Shown here: piece after piece, positions 20,390-49,528 of the stretch | Position numbering within the stretch: position 1 is the first letter of the stretch | Layout of the letters: each line of letters begins with the position of its first letter | Source: an uncultured Flavobacteriales bacterium | Lineage (GTDB): Bacteria; Bacteroidota; Bacteroidia; Flavobacteriales_E; Vicingaceae | Length of the DNA: 49,637 bases | Direction of reading: 5' to 3' | Assembly: GCA_905479915.1 (NCBI GenBank) | Contig: CAJQOH010000018.1 | Location: 1 to 49,637 of the forward strand | Translations under genes and position numbers: made by a program | The notes under the pieces: model-generated | What the model was told of the DNA's origin: nothing | Databases searched by the model: none | Seen by the model: only the letters and a program-made list of their open reading frames with translations

Positions 20390-23300
20390 CTATTGTTTAA
20401 TTATTTTCTTAAGTATAGTCTCTCCATCCAATTCTACTTTAATAAAGTAAACACCTTCCGTCATTTTTTCAATAGAATTCCAAGTAAACTCATTAAATCC
20501 AACAACCGTTTTATCTTGTGTAATTGTTTCAATTACCCGCCCAACAACATCAGTTAATTTAATTTCTAATAGCTCCTCTTTATCTGTCACAAAGGAAATT
20601 TTTAAATATTCCCTGAACGGATTAGGGTGAATTTGAATATCAATACCATCAATCATTTCATTTTTAATAGATAATTCATTGCTAATTCTTAAATAAACCA
20701 ATTCATTTGTTTCATAAGGAATAACAGTGTCAATATCTTGAATTATGTTTAAATCATTATCCAACAATTTAAACGAAATTGAATCAGATGACTCTCCATG
20801 AACGGTTAAGTAAAATTTATTTTCTTTTGACCTAACCATTCCTCTAATATTATTTGCCTTATCGTAAGCCGCTAAAATAGTATTATCAGGGATACCAATA
20901 TCTGCAATAACATTCATATTGGTTGGATAAATAGTGTAAGGAATTTGATCTTCAAACTCAATCACATTTTCTCCCATTTTACCACTAAAATTGGCATATC
21001 TAGGATAAATAATACTTCCATTTGTAGAAGAATTTAACATATACCCTTTTTGAGGCTCTAATAAGCTTAAAGTTCCCTTCCAGCCTAATAGAGCATCGTA
21101 TATCGCAAATTGTTGCTGGCTTTTTATAACATCACCTGTATTAAAAGTAACACTACTCAACGCTTCATTTACGCTCAAACTTGAGGTCTGTAAATATCCT
21201 ATCCAATTCCATCCAGGCTCAATTTTTACAGGGGCATTTACTAAGTTTACAGGTTGACCTGTAATTTCAAAAGAAGTGTCTTTTTGTGTTGACAACCTAA
21301 ATGATGATGAGATATTAATAGAGTCTAAACTCCCTATCCAAGATTGGATTGTACCATCATATTGTGTATAATCTTCTGCATTTCTAAAAACATCTGCTGC
21401 TGCTGGGACAAAATCATTTAACGCCATATTAACAGAAGCATCATTCAAAGTTAAAGGAAAAGATAACCAATTCCATCCATTGTTTACTTCATACATTAAT
21501 GCAACTTGTGCATCCGTATTCAGCACAACAGGAGATCCAATTGTTCCCAAAATAGCATTATTCCCAAAGTTAATATTGAATGGAGTTACATTATTGTGTA
21601 TTACTCCAACACTTGCATCCCAAGCTTTAAAAACAATGTTCTCTATACTATTTGAATTACTATAAATATTTAAAAAGACTCTGTATAAATCTCCTGAAGA
21701 AATGTACTGAACTTTACCTACACCTCTTAATTCATTATTAACATAAGCTGCAACCATATCCATAGTATCGGTTGAAATAATACTTTGTTGTTGAAATTCT
21801 CCAACAAGGCCCATTGAATATTGAAACTGTGATCCATCAATTGTCCAGTCTGGAGTTTTTGCTTTAACATTTAACTTTAGAGTTAAAATTTCATCAAACC
21901 CAAAACCAGTTGTTAATGCAATAAACTCTTCATAATCTCCAATATTTAGACCTGGTAAAACATCAAACGTAATCGTTTGCCTGCTTAATGCTCCAATATT
22001 TCCAGAAGTTTGAGTTGCTTGTAACCAAGAAGGAAGGTTAGAGATTGTAAATATTTGATTAGAACCACTATTATTTACTACATCCACTGTAAATTGATAG
22101 TCTTCTCCAACAAGTATTTCTGCTTGATGAATATCATCACCCCAAACTACTTGATTTTTATCTACATAGGCCAACCAAGTTACTGCAGAATTCATTTTAT
22201 TACCGTTCATATCTTGTAAGTTTCTCACGGTAATGTCTAACTCAACATTTTCTATTTGAGCAGCAGGTGTAATTGGTGTTATAATTATTTCATCATTATT
22301 AACAGCGTAAGTAAAGTTTACTGATTTAACCGAACGCTCAATTTTAATTGGAGCCGTTGTATTACTATGTGCCATTCCTCCCATTAATTGAGATGAGTGT
22401 GCTTGCAAGCCAATACTCGACTTATCAGATAAATCTGCAAATGTTTCAGTTAATACTAACTGACCAAATGAGTTAGTTGTATATTCTTCAAAGGGAAAAT
22501 AAGCCATTAAACCGTACTCGTCTCCTTTTAATCTATACTTAGCATCTCTTTCAATCTGATCACCTTGACGTGCCGCGTACCAAAATTTAAGTTCATCTAT
22601 TTGACCCGTTAAGTGTTGGTCTATTGTTTCTCCTCCTAACTCTTCTCTTCCATACGCTCCAATGTAAATCTTAGACCCTCCGAAAGCAGAAAATTTTGTA
22701 CTGGATATCGCTCCAGTTAAATTACCATCAACATATGTTTTCGTATTCCCTAAACGGTTAGATACTAAAGCAAAATGATGCCAGTTGTCATCGAAAAAAT
22801 TAACATCACTTACTTTCAATTCATAACCTGCATTCTTAACATACAACTTACTATTTGCATCGGAATAAATAGCCCAAGAAGATTCATTGTAATTTACTAC
22901 AGAGTTATCAATATTACCATTCGATAATAAAGTTTTATTTACACCACTTCCACTTTTAAACCAGAAAGATATGGTAAAATCAGTTTCTTTATCAAAGTTT
23001 AGTGTAGCTGAGTTAATTGCAAAATAATCGTCCACTCCGTCAAAAGTTATTGCTCTTCCATCTTGAGCAAAACTCCACGTAGCATCGTGAATAGCAGCTC
23101 TTCTTCCAGTTTTATCAGCAAGTACAGTTCCTTCTCCTTTATCCATTGTCCAATAGCCTAATAATCCAGCTGCATTCTTCGCTTGGGTTAATAGATAATT
23201 AGCTGTAATTTCAGAGCTTGTTCTTACATCATTCCATAAACGCAGCTCATGGATATTCCCTTTAAAAGTATTTCCAATTTTTATCGGTAATGTACTTTCA

Positions 23301-26300
23301 GTAATTGTTGATGTAAGTGTCCCCGAAGCATCTCCAATTCCTGCAACATACAAATCAACAGACTTATTGGTATTGTCAAAAACAACGGCATAATGTGTCC
23401 AATCGTTATTGTTAATTACTGTATTTGAAACCAATGCTTTTCCATCAATGTTAAAATAAAAATTATCTGCTGCATCAAACCCTATTTCCCATTGTCCATC
23501 TTGTTTTGCAAGTACTTCAGCACCTGTAGCATTTCTCTTTGCAAAAAATTCAATAGAAAACGATCTATTTTCAAGGTTCGTTATAGGAATAGTCATTTCA
23601 TCTGTCCCATCAAAGTAAAGACTTGTGTAATGAGCAATATCTGTACTGTTAAGTACCCCTCTGATATCAATATCTAACCCTGCATTAATTAAACCAGTAT
23701 TAATTTGTTCGTTAAACTTAATGCTAATCTCATCACTTGGAGATAAAATCCCATTAATTGGTTTAGGTGCTCCAAAATTATGTGGATTTACTCTATCTAC
23801 AATTCCAGAATAAATTGGAGAAAGTCTTTTTACCTGATTAGGACAAGTAGTCTCTATTTGGATATCATAATTCCCATCCAATAAATTACTCATATCAAAA
23901 TCTGCAGTAGTATAAGGAGAGCTTCTCGATAACAACAGGGTATCAGCTCCTGCATTATCTTTATTAAAGAAACTCATCGCATTAATCCAAGTAGCACTCG
24001 TACTTGGTTTAAAACGCATTACCGCTTTCTCAAATCCTGCAAAATTTAAGTCATAATCTCCAATAATGTAAGGAAGCGTATCATTAAACGAGCTATTTAG
24101 TACCCATTGATCTGTTGGAGCCAATAAGGAGGACTTTGTACAAGTAGGCACAAATGATACACTAAAAGTTGTTGAAACCTCAATAGAAGTATCACACACA
24201 GATTGAAAGATTAATGTTAGATCCTTAAACTCATTTTCTTGCGGACTTTTTTGTACCAGCATTGTTTTATTGATACTGGTTCCTGCCGGAATCTTAAAAG
24301 ATCTATTCGGGTCTTGTCCATCAATGGAAACAATTGCTCCGTGAGGGTTAGATGCCGCATCTAATTCCAAATCGTAAATCATAATATCGTCTGGGTTTTC
24401 ATTCACTAAGGTTAATGTAAATACCGCTTCTTGATCGGATGGAATACCCACCTGCACAGCCGGACTAATAGAGATACCAGGTCGCTCTCTTTGTACAGTA
24501 GCTGGTGAAAGAACATGTTGCCCTGGTTCAAAATACTTGGTCTTTACTTCATCTTCGTAAGGACAAGAAGTTTCTGCTCCTTTTATCTTGAAAATAGGCC
24601 CGTTTTGATTTCCTCCGTCTAAAATATCCACTGAGTAAAAATCTCCTAGGTTTTCATCCTCTAAGGTAAATTCATAAGCAATACTATGAGATTCTCCTCT
24701 AGAAGTTTCTCCACTTGTTTGTAAACCAACAGTAAAAGAGTTGGTAGCTTCTATTCCTGTACCACTTACTGTAGCCCCAGCTATAGTTGCTAATGTATTG
24801 GATACGTTAACCTCATAACTAAACATGTAAGACATATCATTACTCAGTGTAACACTTCGAGAATAAGATGTTCCTGAACTAAAAGAAACATTCTTTTCCA
24901 ATTCTGATACGGCTTGTTCTAACAATACCACAGAATGGTCTGGTCCTGAACCAACTGCTGTACCTATATCTCCAGCTGGAGGAACACTTTGTCCATCAGC
25001 AGCATTTACCTTCATTTCTTCATTTAAGGCAATGGCTTCTTCCCACAAACGTATTTGTTGATTGTATTTTCTTACAGGGTCTATGACAACAGAGTCAGGG
25101 TGAAAAACTTTTGTAAAAGTATAACTCGGCCCATCATTATCTGCAGGATGATCTTTTGGATAATCGCTAGTAGCAGCAGCCCCCCATTTTGGATCGTCAT
25201 TGTTAGACCCATACAAAGGATTTGTTGCCGGAATTTTAGAGGTATAATCTGCATCGGTAAGAAGTAAATCATTTCTCAATTGTTTTAAATTAGGAATTAA
25301 ATCTTCTATAATGTGTTTTTGAGTATATATAAAGTAAGTTCCAAAATCAGTAGGATCTACCGTAAATCCTTTTCTACTCCCTAATTTATACGTAAACCCT
25401 GATGCTGTTTTGGTAGAATCGGAAGTTTTACACTTTACGTCTCCTCCACAAGCATTACTTGGTATGAATTCCAAATAATCTGCTACACCAAAAGTCATAT
25501 TTTGTGATTTCCCGATGTAAATATCTGCATCAGCTCCTACAAATTCTGGGTCTGCACTTGTACTAATGTCTTCTTGAATGGTAATGGTTTCTCCATAATC
25601 TTGACCACCACCTAAGGTTGTTGATATATCAAAAGTATTCACTAAGCTACCTTTGATCTCTGTAGCAGTTGCGAGACCTACCCCTACAGCAAATTTAGCT
25701 CCAACCTTCACATTTTGTTCAAATGAGCCACCAATGGAACCTCCGACATACCAAGAAAAATTACTTCTAATTTCACTGTCTTTTACTAAAGTAGCAAAGC
25801 TATTAGATCCTGGGGGATCTCGTAAAATATGACTGGGCATTTCTGGGCCTTCAGTTACAAAACTTGTTCCGCCTTGTTTATTTCCAATAACGTAAGCATC
25901 CATTTCCCAGGAACTAGAAGTTAACCCTATTTGCGAGGTAATTTCTATTTTTTTAGTAAAATCTTTTTCTGGCTCTGATGGATTTTGAGTAATGTTAGGC
26001 TCACCAACAGTAAAAACATACAAAGAGTCTCCATCAATATCCGTAATGTCAAAAACATCCAAGTTTCCAGAAAGCCCATTGTTTACAGTAATTTGTGCAT
26101 CAGTTACTCCTACAGTATCATGTACAGTACCAACATCATTGTTCGTGTAAATTTCACTTACCTTAATTAAACAAGCATAATCATTGTGCTGTAAAAATGC
26201 TGGATAAACTAACCCGCTAGTATAAATCGTATCTATATCACCTTTATTAAATACAATTAAAGAATCTTCTCCTTTACTAAATGGATTTCCTACATTATCG

Positions 26301-29300
26301 GAAACGGTTAAAGTATGTCGAGATCGATAGATATAATCTTTCTTATAATGAAATTCTACTTCATCAACATGAATTACATTACCTAAAGCATCGTACACCG
26401 TATCTTTAATTTCTTGTAAAGGCAAGGTATTGGATAGTTTAACTAATTCCACAGGAAAGGTAATCGTTGGGTTACTTTCAATAATAATCTCAGGGTTAGC
26501 ATGAGATGTAGCTCCTTTAAAATAATAATCTAAAGGAAATACTTCTGTAACAAATTCACCATACTGATCCGTTTCAACTGTATCTGCGTAAGTACATCCT
26601 GTAGCTTCCAAAACAATTTTTGCAGTTCCAATGTTATTCTTTGTTCGATGTAATCCCGTAATTTGATCTCCTTCTCGCGTTCCTCCAACAGCCTTACCTA
26701 TTACTTTTATTTTTGTATTGTCTACAAACACTTTTCCAGGCCCAGTACCAAAATCAATAGGTTGCTGAAAGTCATGTGTACCTGTTTCAGGATACCTTCC
26801 TTTAAAGAAGGTGTGTCCTGATTTTTCAAAAGAAATGTAATGGTCTCCAATAGGTACAGTAACATCAAATTTCCCGTCTGTCTGAGTAGTGACAGGTTGC
26901 CCATCTTTTATAGCAAAAGTTCCATCAACCTTTACGTAAACACCTGCTGCAGGACAATATACGTCATTGTTGTTTTCTCCATAAAACAGATACCCAATAA
27001 CAGGGAAAGCAGATATATCTTCAAAATCCTGATTATTACTTACAGGACTTGATTTCCCAACAAAAACAGTTCTATTGTTAGGTTTAAATTGATGGTTAGG
27101 AATATAAGGAGTTATGTTAAATATTTCTCCATTATCCGCATAACTCATGTGCTTAATAATATAATTTCCATCTACATCTGTAACTGCATTATTTCCTAAT
27201 TTAGAACTACTTGGAACCACGTTGCTAAAAGTAGGGGTATTCCATGTATACCTTGTCATTACACCATGGCGGTTATTGAAATTGTTTCCTGAAGTGAATG
27301 AAGCATCATATACCTTATTTCCTACTCCTTCTTCAAAACGCAAATACATCCCTAAACCAGACTCATTACCTTGTAAAAACCCATTCATTTCGGCATTAAT
27401 CTGCGTTTCAGATTTGGCAATTCCCCACAGTCTAAACTCATCCATATACCCTTTAAAAGAAGCTGAAGAAGTTGGAGTATCGTCTAGTCTACTGTTTGTT
27501 CCTACTACAAAAGCATGCCCAAAAGAACCCTTTGTTATGTTTAATTCTTGTTGAAAAGAAAGTGGATCTCCATTCTTATCTATATTTGATCCATCTACAA
27601 AAACATTAATTGTTTCTGTATTATTATCATAAGTAATTGCAAAATGATGCCATTCATTGGGGTGAATATCTATACTAATAGGATAATCGACAGTTCCTGT
27701 TCTTAACTTCCATACGCTATTACCGTTACTTGGAGTAACTAATGCTAAATAATCTCCTGAAACCCCTGTTCTACCTACCCTAAAGATATAACTACTATTA
27801 TATTCTACCGGATTTGCCCAGAACTCTATGGTTTTATCGTTATCATTCAACACAAAATCAAGGTCTACCTGATTATATTCCACTAAAGATGTTACCCAAT
27901 TTGCACTAGCTTCGTCCACAAAAAGAAAGTGGTCTCTATCTCCATCAAAATAAAGAGATTGATTCAAATTATTTCCAATGTTACTCTCTCCTAATATTTG
28001 ACAACCTTCTACACTAATACCTCCCGTATATTCAACACGGCCGGTAACGATTCCATAAGGAGATCTAAAACCTATAGCAGATGCCGTATCTGAAATTAAA
28101 TCAGCTGCAGCACAATTCCCTTCTGCAGCAATAAAGTATTCATATAAGGTGTTTGCTTCCTGGTTTTCGTCTTTATATGTTCTTAAATTAGGGTCTACAG
28201 TTGCAACTAAAGCTGGAGCAATAGTTTCGCCAAGTTTTCTTCGATAAACTTTTTGTTCCGTTAAAGCTCCACCATTATTTTCAACTGTCCAATCAAGCTG
28301 AACATAATCAGAATGATAGCCTTTACTTGCTAAAAGTGCCCTTAAACCGTATGTATCTTTAATGTCTCCTGGCATATATATATTTCCTGTTGTTGCTATT
28401 TCCAATTCACCAGAACAAGAATTACTTACCTTAACAGTATATGTATTATCTATACAAATGGAGCTTTCAGAAAAAGTTTTTGAAGTAGTATTTGCACTAA
28501 TTCCTTCAATTAAAGGAGTCCCATCTCCATTTTTATAAATTAAAAATTCGTCTTCATTGTTCCATTCATCTGTCCAGTTAAGTGTAATGGTTTTATTTGT
28601 TTCATTTTTCGTTGCTGTAATCCCTGCTGAAGGTGTTGTTAATCCTCCTTTTACCTGTGTTGTTGTATATTGATATGAAGAGTACCTTACATCACTTCCC
28701 CTAACCCCATTGGCATTAACACGAGTAGCTGACCTTACTTTATACCTATATTGCTGGTTGGTTGAAAATGCAGTATTATCAACAAATGTAAATGTTGTGG
28801 TATTCGCTCCTTTATTACTAGTAATAGGATCTGACCCAACAATATCGGCACCATGATCTGTTCCTGCTTTATACTCAGCAATTTTTACAGTTGACCCGCC
28901 AATTTTTTCTTTGTAGATACCAAAATAGACCTCCATGCATTCTTGATTATCTACTTCCCATTTCAATGTTCTTTCACTACGGTTACAAATATCTCCTTCA
29001 ACTCTAAAATTATTAATCTCACTTATCTCAGGTGTTATTATTATACTCGTTATAGCATTATACGGCTCACCTGTGTAATCATGCTCCTCCAAAACCAGTG
29101 TTAAACGGTATTCATAATCTTTACAATCATCTGTTAAAGTATGAGTATAAGAAGAACGTGATCCACTAATCTTTCCATCAACTTCTTTCCAAGCACCATA
29201 GGTAGTTGAACCCGCATTTTTTGTTCTTACATCTAGTGTGTAATACCAGTCGTCTGTAGCCTCACCTATTTGTGTAGCAGCAGTAGGTTTTGTAAAACTG

Positions 29301-29854
29301 ATTACATTATTACCACTGCTATTTTTAACAACAGATAAATTGGTGAATTTCCAGCTATTTGGCAAGCCGTTTCCTCCAATGTTTTTTAGAGTTACATAAT
29401 CTGCATTAAGATATGACCCATCACAATCGCCCAAATTAGACTCATAAGAGCTAATTTTAAACGTGTAATCTGCCCCCAATATAGGGTTATCTAAATAGCG
29501 GTAAATATAATCTGATAATTTATTCGCAGTTACTGAACCTGTAGAACCATCTATTGTATGATTATTCGGTATTGTGGTTAACCCAGTATTACTATGAGTA
29601 GTCCCATATTTGTATCGAATCGTTACTTTAGGGTAAGTATGTGTGCTACCTCCACAGGGAGAAGATCCATCACCCCATCCTCCAGATCTTCGTTTAAATC
29701 GAATCACAATACGATCATTACTTGAGTCATAATAAGATGATACATATTCTGTTCCTATGTATGCTTTTGCTTGGTTGGTAAAAGCTACCCCCATTAGCAT
29801 TAGAACAGTTAAAATAACTTTATTAAATGTTGTTTTTTCGGCTCGTTTTATCAT
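20390..29854 (-). CDS. Giant secreted LamG-domain protein with T9SS sorting domain (3154 aa)
   Basis: The protein has a signal peptide (residues 1-31, ending NQAKA), fibronectin-III-like segments (about 170-600), a LamG/concanavalin-like domain (about 630-845), carboxypeptidase-regulatory-like beta domains with DGNYII, TDGKFDVTVPIGDHYIS and DQYGEFVTEVFP (about 890-1110), and a long unassigned beta-rich core (about 1330-1860, starting near HILRDPPGSNSFA). Two more LamG domains follow (about 2075-2235 and 2265-2450, with YFDGTDEMTIP and TFDGVDDYFAIN). Two copies of the module shared with the neighbouring gene start near 2660 and 2960, and a Por sorting domain (HPNPFREYLKIS to GVYFIKVELDGE) ends the protein. 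LamG domains often bind glycans, so a cell-surface adhesin or polysaccharide-binding role is plausible but unproven. There is no enzyme motif that I can see. Confidence 0.9.
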   Translation of the reverse strand: MIKRAEKTTFNKVILTVLMLMGVAFTNQAKAYIGTEYVSSYYDSSNDRIVIRFKRRSGGWGDGSSPCGGSTHTYPKVTIRYKYGTTHSNTGLTTIPNNHTIDGSTGSVTANKLSDYIYRYLDNPILGADYTFKISSYESNLGDCDGSYLNADYVTLKNIGGNGLPNSWKFTNLSVVKNSSGNNVISFTKPTAATQIGEATDDWYYTLDVRTKNAGSTTYGAWKEVDGKISGSRSSYTHTLTDDCKDYEYRLTLVLEEHDYTGEPYNAITSIIITPEISEINNFRVEGDICNRSERTLKWEVDNQECMEVYFGIYKEKIGGSTVKIAEYKAGTDHGADIVGSDPITSNKGANTTTFTFVDNTAFSTNQQYRYKVRSATRVNANGVRGSDVRYSSYQYTTTQVKGGLTTPSAGITATKNETNKTITLNWTDEWNNEDEFLIYKNGDGTPLIEGISANTTSKTFSESSICIDNTYTVKVSNSCSGELEIATTGNIYMPGDIKDTYGLRALLASKGYHSDYVQLDWTVENNGGALTEQKVYRRKLGETIAPALVATVDPNLRTYKDENQEANTLYEYFIAAEGNCAAADLISDTASAIGFRSPYGIVTGRVEYTGGISVEGCQILGESNIGNNLNQSLYFDGDRDHFLFVDEASANWVTSLVEYNQVDLDFVLNDNDKTIEFWANPVEYNSSYIFRVGRTGVSGDYLALVTPSNGNSVWKLRTGTVDYPISIDIHPNEWHHFAITYDNNTETINVFVDGSNIDKNGDPLSFQQELNITKGSFGHAFVVGTNSRLDDTPTSSASFKGYMDEFRLWGIAKSETQINAEMNGFLQGNESGLGMYLRFEEGVGNKVYDASFTSGNNFNNRHGVMTRYTWNTPTFSNVVPSSSKLGNNAVTDVDGNYIIKHMSYADNGEIFNITPYIPNHQFKPNNRTVFVGKSSPVSNNQDFEDISAFPVIGYLFYGENNNDVYCPAAGVYVKVDGTFAIKDGQPVTTQTDGKFDVTVPIGDHYISFEKSGHTFFKGRYPETGTHDFQQPIDFGTGPGKVFVDNTKIKVIGKAVGGTREGDQITGLHRTKNNIGTAKIVLEATGCTYADTVETDQYGEFVTEVFPLDYYFKGATSHANPEIIIESNPTITFPVELVKLSNTLPLQEIKDTVYDALGNVIHVDEVEFHYKKDYIYRSRHTLTVSDNVGNPFSKGEDSLIVFNKGDIDTIYTSGLVYPAFLQHNDYACLIKVSEIYTNNDVGTVHDTVGVTDAQITVNNGLSGNLDVFDITDIDGDSLYVFTVGEPNITQNPSEPEKDFTKKIEITSQIGLTSSSWEMDAYVIGNKQGGTSFVTEGPEMPSHILRDPPGSNSFATLVKDSEIRSNFSWYVGGSIGGSFEQNVKVGAKFAVGVGLATATEIKGSLVNTFDISTTLGGGQDYGETITIQEDISTSADPEFVGADADIYIGKSQNMTFGVADYLEFIPSNACGGDVKCKTSDSTKTASGFTYKLGSRKGFTVDPTDFGTYFIYTQKHIIEDLIPNLKQLRNDLLLTDADYTSKIPATNPLYGSNNDDPKWGAAATSDYPKDHPADNDGPSYTFTKVFHPDSVVIDPVRKYNQQIRLWEEAIALNEEMKVNAADGQSVPPAGDIGTAVGSGPDHSVVLLEQAVSELEKNVSFSSGTSYSRSVTLSNDMSYMFSYEVNVSNTLATIAGATVSGTGIEATNSFTVGLQTSGETSRGESHSIAYEFTLEDENLGDFYSVDILDGGNQNGPIFKIKGAETSCPYEDEVKTKYFEPGQHVLSPATVQRERPGISISPAVQVGIPSDQEAVFTLTLVNENPDDIMIYDLELDAASNPHGAIVSIDGQDPNRSFKIPAGTSINKTMLVQKSPQENEFKDLTLIFQSVCDTSIEVSTTFSVSFVPTCTKSSLLAPTDQWVLNSSFNDTLPYIIGDYDLNFAGFEKAVMRFKPSTSATWINAMSFFNKDNAGADTLLLSRSSPYTTADFDMSNLLDGNYDIQIETTCPNQVKRLSPIYSGIVDRVNPHNFGAPKPINGILSPSDEISIKFNEQINTGLINAGLDIDIRGVLNSTDIAHYTSLYFDGTDEMTIPITNLENRSFSIEFFAKRNATGAEVLAKQDGQWEIGFDAADNFYFNIDGKALVSNTVINNNDWTHYAVVFDNTNKSVDLYVAGIGDASGTLTSTITESTLPIKIGNTFKGNIHELRLWNDVRTSSEITANYLLTQAKNAAGLLGYWTMDKGEGTVLADKTGRRAAIHDATWSFAQDGRAITFDGVDDYFAINSATLNFDKETDFTISFWFKSGSGVNKTLLSNGNIDNSVVNYNESSWAIYSDANSKLYVKNAGYELKVSDVNFFDDNWHHFALVSNRLGNTKTYVDGNLTGAISSTKFSAFGGSKIYIGAYGREELGGETIDQHLTGQIDELKFWYAARQGDQIERDAKYRLKGDEYGLMAYFPFEEYTTNSFGQLVLTETFADLSDKSSIGLQAHSSQLMGGMAHSNTTAPIKIERSVKSVNFTYAVNNDEIIITPITPAAQIENVELDITVRNLQDMNGNKMNSAVTWLAYVDKNQVVWGDDIHQAEILVGEDYQFTVDVVNNSGSNQIFTISNLPSWLQATQTSGNIGALSRQTITFDVLPGLNIGDYEEFIALTTGFGFDEILTLKLNVKAKTPDWTIDGSQFQYSMGLVGEFQQQSIISTDTMDMVAAYVNNELRGVGKVQYISSGDLYRVFLNIYSNSNSIENIVFKAWDASVGVIHNNVTPFNINFGNNAILGTIGSPVVLNTDAQVALMYEVNNGWNWLSFPLTLNDASVNMALNDFVPAAADVFRNAEDYTQYDGTIQSWIGSLDSINISSSFRLSTQKDTSFEITGQPVNLVNAPVKIEPGWNWIGYLQTSSLSVNEALSSVTFNTGDVIKSQQQFAIYDALLGWKGTLSLLEPQKGYMLNSSTNGSIIYPRYANFSGKMGENVIEFEDQIPYTIYPTNMNVIADIGIPDNTILAAYDKANNIRGMVRSKENKFYLTVHGESSDSISFKLLDNDLNIIQDIDTVIPYETNELVYLRISNELSIKNEMIDGIDIQIHPNPFREYLKISFVTDKEELLEIKLTDVVGRVIETITQDKTVVGFNEFTWNSIEKMTEGVYFIKVELDGETILKKIIKQ

Positions 29855-43601: not shown

Positions 43602-44717
43602 CTATTTTATAACTATTTTACTAGAACTTGTCTTTTTATCCTGTACGATTTGTACAAAATAAATACCTTCACCTTTATCACTTATATCAATACTGTTAAG
43701 GTACTTACCATTAAAGTCTGACACCATTTCAGAGTAAACAACTTTTCCTTGTACATCAACTATTCTTATCCCTACAGGTTTTTCACTATCTAATTTAAAA
43801 CTTAAATCAAACTTTCCATCACTTGGGTTAGGACTAAATTTTAATTTATTTAATGATAATTCTGATGTAGAAGCAGAAGCTGGTTTAGTTCTCTTTTTTG
43901 AAGACCTCTCATCTGTTACAACTTTAGAAATAACAACTACCTTTTTCATTTCCTCTCCATTTTTATCATCTATATCAACATTAATTGACACGTTATGTTT
44001 GCCTGTAATTTTTCCATCTTCTCCAATAAACATGATTTTATGACCCTCTCCAAGCTCTTCGTCATCCAACTCCATTTCTTCTCCATCAACAATCTTTTTC
44101 ATGGTAACATTTCCGTTTTCATCAACCGTTTTTATGATTTTAACAGAATGTGCTTCTTCTCCTTCTTCATTGCTTTCAATCAAAACCTCAACATCTTTCA
44201 TGGTCGCTTCAATATCAATATTTTCGCCTAAATGCTCAATATGTTTATGAATGTCCCCTACATTTATTTCCATCTCCTCTCCATTCACCATCATTTTAAT
44301 CACTCCATCTTCTCCCTCACTTCCTTCTAACATGTTAAAATCAAAATTCATCTCAACATCCTCTTCTCCATCTCCTGCTTTAAACTTCATTATTTTAACT
44401 CCATTTTCATCCTCACCATTAATATCCATATCAAAGTTAAAATCAAATGTACCAGAATCTCCATCCATCATCATTACTTTGATCATCTCATGAATGCCTT
44501 CTCCATCAATTCCTTCATGTAGTTTTTCTATCCAGCTTGTGTTTTCATCACAATTAAAAGTAGAATCGATAACAGTCTTTTCTCCATTTATAATTTTAAC
44601 AATTTTTACTTTACATTTCTTATCTTCATTTCCCTCTTTAGGATTGGTAAATGAAAAAACTCCAACAACCAAAACGATTAAGCCAACTGGAATTAATAGT
44701 GTTTTTAAATTTTTCAT
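43602..44717 (-). CDS. Acidic secreted T9SS protein with VNGEE repeats, divergent from a two-component system
   Basis: The 371-residue protein has an N-terminal hydrophobic segment (LLIPVGLIVLVVGVFSFT) serving as signal, a very acidic middle (residues 30-270, runs such as DGDSGTFDFNFDMD and EDGVIKMMVNGEEME) and a T9SS sorting domain (KFSPNPSDGKFDLSFKLD, GIYFVQIVQDKK). The middle part repeats a [IV][ND]GE[EK] strand-turn unit: KIINGEKTVID, MMVNGEEMEIN and KIVDGEEMELD. The same unit occurs in the periplasmic domain of the histidine kinase encoded on the other side of a 176-base divergent gap. It could bind cations because it is so acidic. Function is unknown; co-regulation with the kinase is likely. 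Confidence 0.88.
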   Translation of the reverse strand: MKNLKTLLIPVGLIVLVVGVFSFTNPKEGNEDKKCKVKIVKIINGEKTVIDSTFNCDENTSWIEKLHEGIDGEGIHEMIKVMMMDGDSGTFDFNFDMDINGEDENGVKIMKFKAGDGEEDVEMNFDFNMLEGSEGEDGVIKMMVNGEEMEINVGDIHKHIEHLGENIDIEATMKDVEVLIESNEEGEEAHSVKIIKTVDENGNVTMKKIVDGEEMELDDEELGEGHKIMFIGEDGKITGKHNVSINVDIDDKNGEEMKKVVVISKVVTDERSSKKRTKPASASTSELSLNKLKFSPNPSDGKFDLSFKLDSEKPVGIRIVDVQGKVVYSEMVSDFNGKYLNSIDISDKGEGIYFVQIVQDKKTSSSKIVIK

Positions 44718-44755
44718 AACTCTTTAAGTTTTAAGTTTAACAATTATTTACACTA

Positions 44756-44763
44756 CAAATTTA
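44756..44763 (-). promoter_or_regulatory. -7 promoter box of the acidic secreted protein gene
   Basis: Minus-strand TAAATTTG ends 38 bases before the ATG. TACCGCAT is repeated directly upstream (44762-44769 and 44775-44782 on the plus strand). No TTG stands at -33, which fits a promoter that needs an activator. Confidence 0.55.
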
Positions 44764-44786
44764 CCGCATGCTTCTACCGCATAGTG

Positions 44787-44824
44787 TTAAAGGGCTCTTA
44801 AAGAAAGTTAAGGAAAAGTTAAAG
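44787..44824. promoter_or_regulatory. Four phased TTAAAG direct repeats, putative response-regulator site
   Basis: TTAAAG starts at 44787, 44798, 44808 (TTAAGG) and 44819, with steps of 11, 10 and 11 bases, i.e. one helical turn each. This is the typical arrangement for OmpR/PhoB-family dimers. It lies upstream of the -7 boxes of both divergent transcripts. Confidence 0.6.
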
Positions 44825-44873
44825 TTGAAGTTTGAAACATCTTAAACGTTAAATTTACAACAATAAATGCCCC

Positions 44874-44888
44874 TTGAGCGGAGCCGAA
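44874..44888 (+). repeat. Dispersed 15-mer next to the histidine kinase start
   Basis: TTGAGCGGAGCCGAA is a copy of the repeat at 16165 and 47995, with two or three changes. It lies five bases before the kinase ATG at 44894. Confidence 0.5.
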
Positions 44889-44893
44889 AGGAA

Positions 44894-46459
44894 ATGAAAA
44901 AAAGGATACTACATATTTTAATCGCTTTAATGAGCTTTTCCTTAATAGGTATTATTTGGGTACAAGTGTATTGGATTCAAAATGCTATTAAAGTTAAAGA
45001 AGCTCAATTTGATCAGTTAGTAAATGATGCATTAAACCATGTAGTTACTAATTTAGATGACAACGAGTCCATCATTTTTATCAGCGATCAACTTCACGAC
45101 ATTTCTTCTGACATAGTTATTACTAAAGATTCTTTAAAAGAAGGTCATAACATTAAAAAATGGGTAAAGCGTTTTTCTTCCATAGATTCCACAAATTCAG
45201 AGGGAGAATCATTCAATTATCAAATTAGTGCAGATTCCGATGAGGAAGGAATGGAAATGAAGATCAATGTAAATGGTGATGAAAAAACAATTGAACTAAA
45301 AGATATTGAACATCTTTTCAGTGGGGATTCATCCATTTTTAAAGCTGAAAAAGAAATCGCTATTGGTAAGCGTTTTAGCAATATCATCGTTAAAATGGTA
45401 AATGAGTTTAAAGACATTGATCAACCGATAGAGCACATTTTAAAAACTGTTCAACTTGAATCTATTATCAACACAAGTTTAATTGACAATGGAATTACTA
45501 CTCCTTTTACTTATGCTGTTCTTCATGAAGGAGAGATCGTAACTGAATTTGCTTCAGAAGGTTTTGTTTTAGGGCAAAACAATTTTAATGTTTCTCTATT
45601 TAAACACAACCTATTTGACAAATCAGCACAGCTTTCTATAAATTTTAAAGGAAAAAAGAGTTACATCTTAAAATCGATGGGAATCATGTTACTTACCTCT
45701 ATTCTCTTTACCTTAATCATCATCTTAACCTTTACATTTACTGTACACTATATGGTGAAGCAAAAGAAACTTTCTGAAATGAAGAATGACTTTATCAACA
45801 ATATGACCCACGAATTTAAAACCCCTATTTCTACAATATCTTTAGCTGTAGATTCTATAACACACCCCAAAATCATTGATGATAAAACTCAAATAAATCA
45901 CTTTGCAGATATTATCAGAAAAGAAAACCAACGAATGAACAAACAAGTTGAGAGCGTTTTAAACACTGCTTTAGGTGAAAAAGATGAGTTTAATTTTGAC
46001 AAAACCATTGTGAACATAAACGAGATCATTCAAAAAATTCCAGAAAGAATGAAACTCCTATTAGAAAAGAATTCCACTAATCTAATACTTACGCTTTCTG
46101 ATACAAATCTTAACATTTTAGGTGATGAAATGCATTTACAAAATGCCATTTGCAATTTAATTGAAAACGCGATTAAGTACAACAACAATACTCCAAAAGT
46201 TAATGTTGAATCCAGCCTTGTAAATGGTTTTTGTGAGATTAAAGTAACCGACAATGGTATTGGAATGAGTAGTGAAACTCAAAAAAAGGTTTTCGATAAG
46301 TTTTACAGGGTAGAGACAGGAAACATTCACACCACTAAAGGTTTTGGTATTGGATTGAGTTATGTAAAAGCTATTGTAAATTCCCATAAAGGTGCCATTG
46401 CTTTAAAAAGTAAAATCAATCAAGGAACAATAATCACTATAAGTATACCTGCGGCTTGA
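44894..46459 (+). CDS. Sensor histidine kinase
   Basis: The 521-residue protein has a transmembrane helix (ILHILIALMSFSLIGIIWVQV), a periplasmic domain of about 240 residues, a second transmembrane helix (LLTSILFTLIIILTFTFTV) and a HisKA/HATPase core. The phospho-acceptor His is H306 in NNMTHEFKTPIS. ATP-lid motifs are CNLIENAIKYNN, DNGIGMSS and GFGIGLSYVKAI. The periplasmic part carries the stretch EMKINVNGDEKTIELKDI, which resembles repeats in the divergent acidic secreted protein. I chose ATG 44894 (MKKRILHIL) because the in-frame ATG at 44867 would encode the dispersed repeat. The stop overlaps the TTG start of the regulator. Confidence 0.92.
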   Translation: MKKRILHILIALMSFSLIGIIWVQVYWIQNAIKVKEAQFDQLVNDALNHVVTNLDDNESIIFISDQLHDISSDIVITKDSLKEGHNIKKWVKRFSSIDSTNSEGESFNYQISADSDEEGMEMKINVNGDEKTIELKDIEHLFSGDSSIFKAEKEIAIGKRFSNIIVKMVNEFKDIDQPIEHILKTVQLESIINTSLIDNGITTPFTYAVLHEGEIVTEFASEGFVLGQNNFNVSLFKHNLFDKSAQLSINFKGKKSYILKSMGIMLLTSILFTLIIILTFTFTVHYMVKQKKLSEMKNDFINNMTHEFKTPISTISLAVDSITHPKIIDDKTQINHFADIIRKENQRMNKQVESVLNTALGEKDEFNFDKTIVNINEIIQKIPERMKLLLEKNSTNLILTLSDTNLNILGDEMHLQNAICNLIENAIKYNNNTPKVNVESSLVNGFCEIKVTDNGIGMSSETQKKVFDKFYRVETGNIHTTKGFGIGLSYVKAIVNSHKGAIALKSKINQGTIITISIPAA

Positions 46460-47148
46460 AAAAAAAATACTCCATATTATTAGTTGAAGATGAAGAGAAT
46501 TTTGGCTCTGTCTTAAAAAACTACTTAGAATTAAACGATTACATTGTTACACTCTGCATGGACGGAAACAAAGGCCTTGTTGAATTTAAAAATAACATTT
46601 ATGATCTCTGTATTTTAGATGTAATGATGCCGCTGATGGATGGTTTTAGTTTGGCAGGTGAAATAAAAAAAATGAACCCATCTATTCCTTTAATATTTTT
46701 AACTGCCAAAAAGTTAAAAGAAGACGTTTTAAAAGGGTATGAGATTGGGGCTGATGACTACGTTACCAAGCCTTTTGATACAGAAGTTTTACTGTACAAG
46801 TTAAAAGCAATTTTAAACAGGAACAATAACGTTATTCAAAAAGAGGTAACTTCTAATCATACATTTGGAGCTTTTCATTTTAACACCGATACACGAGAAT
46901 TATCTTCAGACCAATCCTTAAAAAAGCTTTCTCCGAAAGAGTCTGAACTCCTAAAATTATTATGCGAAAATATAAACCAAGTTGTTTCTAGAGATCTTGC
47001 TCTTAATCAAATATGGAAAGACAACAATTACTTTACTACCCGAAGCATGGATGTGTTTATAGCTAAACTTAGAAAATACCTTAAGGAAGATTCTTCTATA
47101 GAAATAATTAATGTTCACGGAAACGGATTTAGATTGTTAGTAAAATAA
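46456..47148 (+). CDS. OmpR/PhoB-family response regulator
   Basis: The 230-residue protein has a receiver domain (ILLVEDEENFGSVL, phospho-acceptor Asp at D55 in LCILDVMMPLMDG, then FLTAKKLKEDVLKGYEIGADD and YVTKPF) and a C-terminal winged-helix DNA-binding domain (KLSPKESELLKLLCENINQ, TTRSMDVFIAKLRKYL). The start is TTG 46456-46458, overlapping the kinase stop TGA by two bases. It is the cognate partner of the kinase and is expected to bind phased direct repeats; four such repeats stand in the divergent region upstream of the kinase gene. Confidence 0.93.
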   Translation: MKKKYSILLVEDEENFGSVLKNYLELNDYIVTLCMDGNKGLVEFKNNIYDLCILDVMMPLMDGFSLAGEIKKMNPSIPLIFLTAKKLKEDVLKGYEIGADDYVTKPFDTEVLLYKLKAILNRNNNVIQKEVTSNHTFGAFHFNTDTRELSSDQSLKKLSPKESELLKLLCENINQVVSRDLALNQIWKDNNYFTTRSMDVFIAKLRKYLKEDSSIEIINVHGNGFRLLVK

Positions 47149-48073: not shown

Positions 48074-48817
48074 TTATGGTCTTACAGAAAATTTTATTGG
48101 AACCTTATATAAAACTTTCACTCTTCTTCCATTGTCTTTTGCAGGTATAAACTCTGGAAGTGAGCTAACTGCGGCATAGGCTTCTCTTTCTAGCTCCTTT
48201 GGAATTTCATGCTTTTTATCATTTAAAATCTTAACATTGGTTACTTTACCTTTTTTATTTACTTCAAAATAAACAAAAGCCATATAAGAAGCTTCCCCTT
48301 TCATTTTTACCGATTCAGGAATACTCATTGTCCTTCCGAAATGTTGATACATCTTTTGGTGTGTACATATTTTTCGCTCTTTTTCTGATAGTTCTGCACA
48401 ATCTTTATAATGAGGCATGTGTTGTGCAAAAGAACGAGGAGCTTCTTCTTCCTTAATAACTTCTACCTCTTTCCAATCTCCTTCTTTAAATTCTACTTCC
48501 GATTGTTTTTTTACTTCTTCCTTTATTTCTACTTCCTTTTCTATAGGTTCATTTTTAACTATTTCGATTTTAGTTAAATCAACTTTCGGTTGTTTTATTT
48601 TTTCTTCAACAATTTCTTTTTCTATTTCGAAGGGTTTAACAGCCTCTATATCCCATTCTATTTCTTCAACAATTTCACCTCCTAAAGTGGCTATATGAAT
48701 TGGAGATGTCCATTCAAAAGCAACTAAAGTTAACCCTCCAGCAATTATTAATCCTATTTGAAAAAAGATTCCTCTTAACTTTTCTAATTTTTTGTTTTTC
48801 TGTTTAAAGTGGTTCAT
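48074..48817 (-). CDS. Energy transducer TonB (copy 2)
   Basis: The 247-residue protein has a basic N-terminus (MNHFKQKNKKLEKLRG), a single transmembrane helix (FFQIGLIIAGGLTLVAFEW), a Glu/Lys/Val-rich periplasmic spacer (residues 60-125, KEIVEEKIKQPKVDL, EKEVEIKEEVKKQSEVEF) and a TonB C-terminal domain (SYMAFVYFEVNKKGKVTNVKIL, AYAAVSSLPEFIPAKDNGRRVK). TonB couples the inner-membrane ion gradient to outer-membrane TonB-dependent receptors. The first 42 residues are almost the same as in the upstream TonB gene, as is the DNA. It also has a segment with two Cys (KDCAELSEKERKICTHQ), which is unusual. Confidence 0.92.
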   Translation of the reverse strand: MNHFKQKNKKLEKLRGIFFQIGLIIAGGLTLVAFEWTSPIHIATLGGEIVEEIEWDIEAVKPFEIEKEIVEEKIKQPKVDLTKIEIVKNEPIEKEVEIKEEVKKQSEVEFKEGDWKEVEVIKEEEAPRSFAQHMPHYKDCAELSEKERKICTHQKMYQHFGRTMSIPESVKMKGEASYMAFVYFEVNKKGKVTNVKILNDKKHEIPKELEREAYAAVSSLPEFIPAKDNGRRVKVLYKVPIKFSVRP

Positions 48818-48835
48818 AGTAGTAATATTTAATGG

Positions 48836-49528
48836 TTAACTTTTTAATTTAAATTTGATTCTGAAATTATAACTTACACTCACGGGTTTTCCTCTTTGTT
48901 TCCCTGGCTCCCAATTTGGCATCGCTTTAACAACTCTTATCGCTTCCTTATCAATTGTAGGGCTTACCCCGCGTAAAATTTTGACTTTCTTAATTGCCCC
49001 GTTTTTATTAATTACGAAATTTAAATATACCGTTCCTTGAACCCCTCCTGATTTATCAATACTCGGATACTTTAGATTATCTCTTAAAAACTTTAATCTT
49101 TCATGCTCTCCTCCTACAAATTGAGGCATTTTCTCTACTATAGTAAAAACTTGTGGAGGATCTACTGGTTCTGGATCTGAAGCAAATTCGTCAGGATCAA
49201 ACTCAGGAACCTCAACTGAGTTAGTTTTGACTTCTAAATCAGTTACTTCATCATCAAAAATCAAAATTTTATCTGGATTAATAGTAGGTGCTTGAATCAT
49301 TTCCACTTTTACTTTAGGTTTAACTATTTCGTCTTGAAAAGTAATTGGAGGTAATTCTGTAATATCAATTGTACAACCTATACAATCATCTTCAGGTGGA
49401 AGAATTTTGACAGAGCTTGTCCATTCAAAAGCAACTAAAGTTAACCCTCCAGCTATTATTAATCCTAGTTGAAAAAAAATTCCTCTTAACTTTTCTAATT
49501 TTTTGTTTTTCTGTTTAAAGTGGTTCAT
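48836..49528 (-). CDS. Energy transducer TonB (copy 1)
   Basis: The 230-residue protein has the same N-terminal part (MNHFKQKNKKLEKLRG and FFQLGLIIAGGLTLVAFEW), then a spacer rich in Pro, Asp and Val (KPKVKVEMIQAPTINPDKIL, DPEPVDPPQVF), and a TonB C-terminal domain (MPQFVGGEHERLKFLRDNL, GTVYLNFVINKNGAIKKVKIL, MPNWEPGKQRGKPVSVSYNF). Its C-terminal domain is the standard periplasmic-partner fold, with VGG and NWxPGxQxGKPV motifs. The spacer has two Cys (DDCIGCTID). It lies 18 bases upstream of the second copy, so both are likely one transcript. Since the N-terminal parts match but the spacers differ, one copy arose by tandem duplication. Confidence 0.93.
   Translation of the reverse strand: MNHFKQKNKKLEKLRGIFFQLGLIIAGGLTLVAFEWTSSVKILPPEDDCIGCTIDITELPPITFQDEIVKPKVKVEMIQAPTINPDKILIFDDEVTDLEVKTNSVEVPEFDPDEFASDPEPVDPPQVFTIVEKMPQFVGGEHERLKFLRDNLKYPSIDKSGGVQGTVYLNFVINKNGAIKKVKILRGVSPTIDKEAIRVVKAMPNWEPGKQRGKPVSVSYNFRIKFKLKS

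Follow-up and report, generated by a model that had tools for sequence, protein, structure and literature searches.

A candidate RprXY-type two-component circuit with a divergently encoded, T9SS-tailed acidic protein in an uncultured Flavobacteriales bacterium

We analysed a 49,637-nucleotide stretch of DNA from an uncultured Flavobacteriales bacterium of the Vicingaceae (contig CAJQOH010000018.1 of assembly GCA_905479915.1), referred to here as the window. Close to its end, an acidic protein with a type IX secretion system (T9SS) sorting tail is encoded divergently from a sensor histidine kinase and a response regulator that resemble RprX and RprY, and four phased TTAA repeats are located between the two. 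We propose, with a probability of about 0.57, that these genes form an RprXY-type two-component circuit, probably concerned with envelope stress, in which the secreted partner is co-regulated and the layout resembles that of CpxP beside CpxRA. An original prediction made from the sequence of the window had suggested a regulatory loop in which the kinase senses the same kind of ligand as the secreted protein, or that protein itself, and controls its synthesis. Control of the secreted protein by the pair is favoured, though not proven, by the operator, the promoters, the joint presence and absence of the genes and the arrangements found across the phylum. A module common to kinase and secreted protein, as a sign that the two have a ligand in common, was not supported.

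Four phased repeats lie midway between two divergent promoters

The gap between the gene for the secreted acidic protein (minus strand) and the kinase and regulator genes (plus strand) extends from 44718 to 44893. It contains, at 44787-44824 on the plus strand, four direct repeats of TTAA(A/G)G, namely TTAAAG at 44787-44792 and 44798-44803, TTAAGG at 44808-44813 and TTAAAG at 44819-44824. Their starts are 11, 10 and 11 bases apart, exactly as originally described, and G precedes three of the four copies. A three-hexamer pattern gave two overlapping matches in the window, against an average of 0.00 in 100 shuffled versions of it, and one further site in the 3.57-megabase genome (C70:20253). A box pair at position 21418 of the window is within a coding gene. 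Direct repeats at intervals of about 10-11 bases, as the geometry of OmpR/PhoB-family regulators wants, are thus present and conserved, and binding to them is predicted from sequence.

Flavobacterial promoters have the consensus TAnnTTTG at -12 to -5, according to the portion of PMC9723704 that was available. A -7 box for the secreted protein was found at 44756-44763 on the minus strand (TAAATTTG; TAnATTTG in all eight sequences of alignment A8), and one for the kinase operon at 44850-44857 on the plus strand (TAAATTTA in the window, TAAATTTG in the seven aligned relatives). With these boxes placed at -12 to -5, the edges of the operator fall at about -36 and about -38 of the inferred starts of the secreted protein and kinase transcripts, respectively, and the operator lies midway between two divergent Bacteroidota-type promoters. 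Alignment A8 covers eight same-genus intergenic regions; the kinase-side operator pair is intact in 8/8, all four TTAA copies are exact in 5/8 and both -7 boxes are kept in 8/8. It leaves out genome G013, in which the operator is on the side of the kinase and additional sequence intervenes between operator and acidic gene.

The kinase and regulator are RprX- and RprY-like

The kinase gene (44894-46459, plus strand) encodes a 521-amino-acid RprX-like sensor histidine kinase. Its start is conserved in orthologues, and judging by the sequence is most likely at 44894, rather than at 44867 as in the open reading frame (ORF) listing. The gene is directly upstream of, and overlaps, that of the RprY-like response regulator (46456-47148, plus strand), whose TTG start overlaps the kinase stop codon. 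The assignment to the OmpR/PhoB family was borne out, since both a receiver domain (Response_reg, PF00072, 94.9 bits) and a winged helix (Trans_reg_C, PF00486, 64.2 bits) were found. The best of 102 NCBIfam families was RprY (NF051850) at 288 bits; as the curated cut-off is 370, the regulator is classed as RprY-like, not RprY. A non-curated RprX-type profile scored the window kinase at 280 bits, a canonical RprX paralogue in the same genome at 249 and the next kinase of the genome at 125. The structural model of the kinase had a mean predicted local distance difference test (pLDDT) score of 80, and a Foldseek search of it against the PDB gave no matches at E-values up to 0.001.

The divergent acidic protein has the features of T9SS type A cargo

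The acidic protein (371 amino acids; 43602-44717, minus strand) consists of a hydrophobic N-terminus, a Cys35/Cys56 hairpin, acidic repeats and a T9SS type A tail. That it is secreted by the T9SS had been predicted, and the comparison with known families agrees: the C-terminal sorting domain (residues 295-371; 43605-43835, minus strand) matched TIGR04183 at 48.4 bits, against a cut-off of 23, and SprA is encoded in the genome. In the model of the protein, which had a mean pLDDT of 56, block values across most of residues 301-370 were 94-97. The signal peptide was judged by eye only, from the hydrophobic N-terminus; this and the tail above cut-off are what define type A cargo here.

All three of the repeat units of type [IV][ND]GE[EK] that had been noted are present on the minus strand: KIINGEKTVID (residues 41-51; 44565-44597), MMVNGEEMEIN (residues 142-152; 44262-44294) and KIVDGEEMELD (residues 208-218; 44064-44096). 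Their core residues are kept in nine aligned orthologues. The first unit is part of an N-terminal hairpin common to many divergent partners (see below), and the conserved Cys35 and Cys56 are at the ends of this predicted first hairpin (local pLDDT about 60-70).

The acidic gene is linked to the kinase gene within the genus

Full-length homologues of the acidic protein, 44-63% identical to it, were found in nine of the 14 same-genus genomes, our own included. Each of the nine adjoins the orthologous kinase and none was found without it, in agreement with the original prediction, which had named this linkage as its test. The kinase meets a contig end in two genomes (G001 and G004) and is broken by undetermined bases in another (G002). 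Kinase and acidic protein are jointly missing in the other five genomes (G003, G007, G010, G011 and G012), which still have a canonical-type kinase. In these, the matches to the kinase were all distant (best E-values 7e-12 to 1e-22), and those to the acidic protein were all of the tail type. In G010 (L016, 1484-1900), the end of the acidic gene abuts the end of the regulator gene; the neighbours are the same as in the window and everything between is gone. This scar suggests that the acidic gene, kinase and regulator were lost there as a block.

Phased TTAA arrays and divergent secreted partners recur in Bacteroidota

The 80 best loci in a scan with the kinase were taken, all of them Bacteroidota going by their titles, and one (L121) was dropped because it had no recognised kinase frame. 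Within 300 bases upstream of the kinase, at least two TTAA copies in 10/11-base phase were present at 72 of the 79 remaining RprX-type loci (10.2 in shuffles), at least three at 21 (0.45) and at least four at 15 (0.05). Where there was no divergent gene, a common form was two TTAA copies situated some 45 bases ahead of the start codon. A divergent protein that looks secreted was encoded at 17 of the 79 loci, and four TTAA copies were found at 11 of these compared to 4 of the 62 others (Fisher p 1.3e-6). Partner status was assigned by reading the N-terminus, divergence and sequence, with no tool label, and contig ends near the loci can hide a partner; they truncate two, L066 and L073. A sample of the phylum, comprising 148 genomes with our own included, had kinase matches in 49; 30 loci were examined, one of which (L280) had its start misread. 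At least two phased copies were present at 28 of the 30, window included. Without the window, at least four copies were found at 7/8 partner loci versus 0/21 loci lacking a partner. A divergent ORF resembling a serine hydrolase (L271) was left out of the partner count. On the kinase tree, which contains RprX-type rows only, the partner label changes 12 times, at least seven of these being forced by starred branches. This suggests that the association is either old and often lost, or repeatedly gained.

A hairpin of type K-V-K-I-x-K-x-x-N-G-K-x-x-x-I-D-T-T-F follows the hydrophobic N-terminus in 14 of the 17 partners, as judged by eye. Its Asp is invariant across the 22 rows of alignment A9, which excludes L090, L107 and L141 (N-terminal motif lacking or misaligned) and also L007. 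T9SS tails were detected at an E-value of 0.01 in five (Pfam) or six (NCBIfam) of 18 scanned partners, window included, and one of the 18, assigned by sequence, has a DegP-type PDZ domain (L107, 3185-3838). At eight loci from a different class within the phylum, the partner is an acidic protein with units of type KVTVTTKENGEEKTEIFEGEEAEEYLDNM. When the hairpin profile was searched against the 148 genomes of the phylum sample, only the window protein was convincing, and the next match (8e-5) was in a frame with two stops; since the sample contains the genomes of L267-L278, this search is insensitive. Profiles of the repeat units of these distant-class partners, searched against 2,679 ORFs, matched best two small secreted proteins at L161 (E 0.09), followed by a frame at L117 (0.32) and the acidic protein of G013, which is in the set three times (0.65-0.83). 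The window acidic protein was not among the best 28 rows. The two L161 proteins (106 and 95 amino acids; 1501-2935, genome G003) are preceded by a three-copy box. From sequence, these matches are suggestive only.

RprY-type boxes are found at other genes

In the genome of the window, three-copy GTTAA arrays are located at the promoter of canonical rprX, 73 bases upstream of htrA, some 50 bases upstream of a TMEM260-like gene, and in an intergenic region (C27:1151-1177, L148) flanked by what we take to be a lipoprotein-like frame and a dnaB-like gene. The canonical rprX array (G000:C17:41155-41190, L147) has four copies and adjoins a gene that is presumably ComF-like; four phased TTAA copies are also present upstream of htrA (G000:C6:15038; L144, L178). 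A match to htrA was found in 34 of 38 genomes, and among the 30 matches examined for boxes, TTAAC-N5/6-TTAAC occurred within 200 bases upstream in 19, our own genome included (0.08 expected). In relatives, three-copy arrays precede M23 peptidase genes (L157, L160) and a TMEM260-like gene (L163).

The further TTAARG triple at C70:20253 (L003), the sole other one in the genome, is about 37 bases before a gene for a YdjM-family membrane protein.

Comparison of the kinase sensor with the secreted protein

According to the original prediction, a repeat module is common to the kinase and the secreted protein. The kinase does contain INVNGDEKTIEL (45263-45298, plus strand; residues 124-135 when numbered from the ATG at 44894), within a predicted three-strand periplasmic insert (model residues 107-134, block pLDDT 50-65). 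I124, N127 and G128 are kept in six aligned full-length same-genus kinases, and much else varies. Asn-Gly is a generic type I' hairpin turn. By profile comparison, the sharing of a module is borderline at best. Alignment of the kinase-sensor and acidic profiles with hhalign covered 43-49 columns in the region of repeat unit 2, with a probability of 9-19%; the score of 30.4 exceeded the maximum of 23.9 in 300 column shuffles, but the reversed profile reached 26.5. Across the whole genome, the kinase-sensor profile placed the acidic protein (E 0.0074) behind another frame, which we take to be pheT-like (0.0039), and searches with it in the genomes of six relatives matched no partner. Among 21 kinase/partner pairs, matched pairs outscored mismatched ones once composition had been corrected for (p 0.0033). 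Five poly-proline loci drove this effect, which lost significance without them (p 0.052) and weakened further when the window genus was also removed (p 0.115); the G006 pair gave a z of 0.8. PPxPP was found in the sensors of 5 of the 79 kinases and, among the 21 partners, at those same five loci (L080, L089, L096, L098 and L109), four of which are in one clade. Kinase and partner may co-vary, as far as sequence can indicate.

A homologous module in kinase and secreted protein is hence unproven, being no better than a chance match genome-wide and with the reversed profile close behind. The profile, genome-wide, relatives' and pair tests do not support the module as a sign of a ligand common to the kinase and the secreted protein.

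A proposed circuit and its alternatives

In the circuit that we propose, the locus would encode a second RprX/RprY-like system, whose regulator would bind the four in-phase GTTAA-type half-sites as two dimer sites. Because the operator is symmetric between the divergent promoters, the regulator would control both its own operon and the secreted acidic repeat protein, probably by activation rather than repression. RprY-type boxes at htrA, M23 peptidase genes and canonical rprXY would point to envelope protein quality control, and envelope or export stress is the probable signal. The secreted protein would be an output of the response and, while still in the periplasm prior to export, probably also a partner of the kinase, feeding back on it as CpxP does on CpxA. 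With a T9SS tail, its periplasmic level would also report on export. A broader version, which we regard as speculative and unlikely, is that RprX-type kinases of Bacteroidota have a recurrent, fast-evolving divergent secreted partner that serves as an exported feedback ligand. Where this partner is T9SS-tailed, the kinase would read un-exported cargo and so link HtrA and envelope genes to the capacity for export by the T9SS or across the outer membrane.

Several observations weigh against the proposed circuit. In 13 of the 14 same-genus genomes, canonical rprX shows overlapping three-copy matches, and 7/7 rechecked same-genus loci of it have four copies; no divergent secreted gene was seen beside the canonical rprX of this genome, so that four copies can occur where there is no partner. 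On the kinase tree, the link between copy number and partner keeps its direction and is not significant by independent pairs (4.5 versus 0.5 of 7, median p 0.125). The eight partner loci of the phylum sample come from two families, seven of them from one, and the partners in general are too divergent to show homology past the short hairpin. The htrA box was found in 17 of 19 genomes of this family and in only 2 of 11 outside it (G040 and G048), and it may serve the canonical RprXY paralogue instead. The five genomes lacking the local pair are 82-97% complete, so some of the absences may be gaps. In the literature, as far as the available parts of these sources go, chaperone genes of P. gingivalis are described as repressed by RprY (PMC3646045), and envelope-stress genes of F. 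psychrophilum are linked to sigma-54 promoters (PMC9723704).

The secreted protein could be an output only, that is, a surface or extracellular acidic protein, for instance cation-binding or coat-like, that is made under envelope stress and does not contact the kinase. Regulation alone accounts for the linkage and operator results, and the resemblance to the kinase is borderline, with the matched pairs losing significance when loci are removed. On the other hand, the divergent partners recur beside RprX-type kinases in several lineages, many have no recognised T9SS tail and so are possibly periplasmic, and PPxPP is common to sensor and partner at the same five loci. We consider this reading a real possibility, though a somewhat doubtful one. 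It is unlikely, in our view, that the locus is a T9SS secretion monitor, in which the acidic protein would leave healthy cells by the T9SS, and failed export would cause it to accumulate in the periplasm, engage the sensor and turn on htrA and related genes. The tail on the window protein, on its eight orthologues and on some partners elsewhere is consistent with such a monitor, as are SprA in the genome and the box at htrA, but the tailed partners are the minority given above, two of the 18 being cut by contig ends.

The two remaining readings concern the operator and the module. An operator that belonged to the canonical RprXY paralogue alone, with the local pair controlling other genes, would fit the phased TTAA arrays that both paralogues have in this genome. 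This is improbable, as the operator sits at the local pair's own promoter, and the local kinase and acidic gene are jointly missing from five genomes that retain a canonical-type kinase. Still more improbable is the original version, a duplicated homologous module in kinase and secreted protein whose ligand the kinase senses: the 43-49-column alignment stands above all 300 column shuffles and the 21 matched pairs gave a low p value, but the low hhalign probability, the close reversed profile, the chance match ahead of it genome-wide, the absence of a match in 6/6 relatives and the G006 pair all speak against it.

Other features of the window

At 20390-29854, the window encodes a 3,154-residue protein that looks secreted and in which LamG-like stretches and a T9SS-like tail were recognised by eye. 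At 48074-49528 are two tandem proteins, TonB-like by eye, whose N-termini are nearly identical (MNHFKQKNKKLEKLRGIFFQ); from this sequence likeness, they are probably a duplication.

Comparison with known systems

In enterobacteria, the secreted protein CpxP is encoded divergently beside the OmpR-family system CpxRA, and CpxP/Spy inhibits the kinase. The window likewise has a divergent secreted gene beside an OmpR-family system, with candidate regulator boxes between them, and candidate boxes also at an htrA/degP-type protease. It is unlike the Cpx system in that some partners have a T9SS tail, that there is no sequence kinship (no LTXXQ/Spy-type Pfam match was found in window proteins or scanned partners) and that feedback on the kinase is here only inferred.

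The closest family of the window regulator is RprY, known with RprX from B. fragilis and P. gingivalis; the window regulator falls below the RprY cut-off and a canonical paralogue is encoded in the same genome. In the parts of the sources available, RprY of P. gingivalis binds the promoters of chaperones as well as its own (PMC3646045), and a transposon screen of B. fragilis identified rprX/rprY as the sole two-component system that was essential (PMC4072883). The sampled literature on the known system, as far as it was available, mentions no divergent secreted partner and does not state the RprX signal, and titles and abstract openings gave no description of a secreted RprX partner or a TTAA box. 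The box and its position at htrA provide a testable regulon, and the secreted partner beside the sensor a testable signal.

The statement in the original prediction that no such system was known to have been described needs qualifying in view of the known RprY kind and of PorA, a T9SS C-terminal domain protein that, in the available part of PMC7712824, acts upstream of PorXY-SigP. Both cases pair a T9SS cargo protein with a two-component system. According to the same part of that source, PorA has a FimH-like domain, unlike the window protein, and PorX has a PglZ domain and binds SigP rather than DNA, whereas the window regulator has a winged helix; a Pfam search of this regulator gave no match to PglZ, and Trans_reg_C instead. 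If the proposed reading is true, the locus would represent a Cpx-like envelope-stress circuit for the phylum that depends on type IX secretion.

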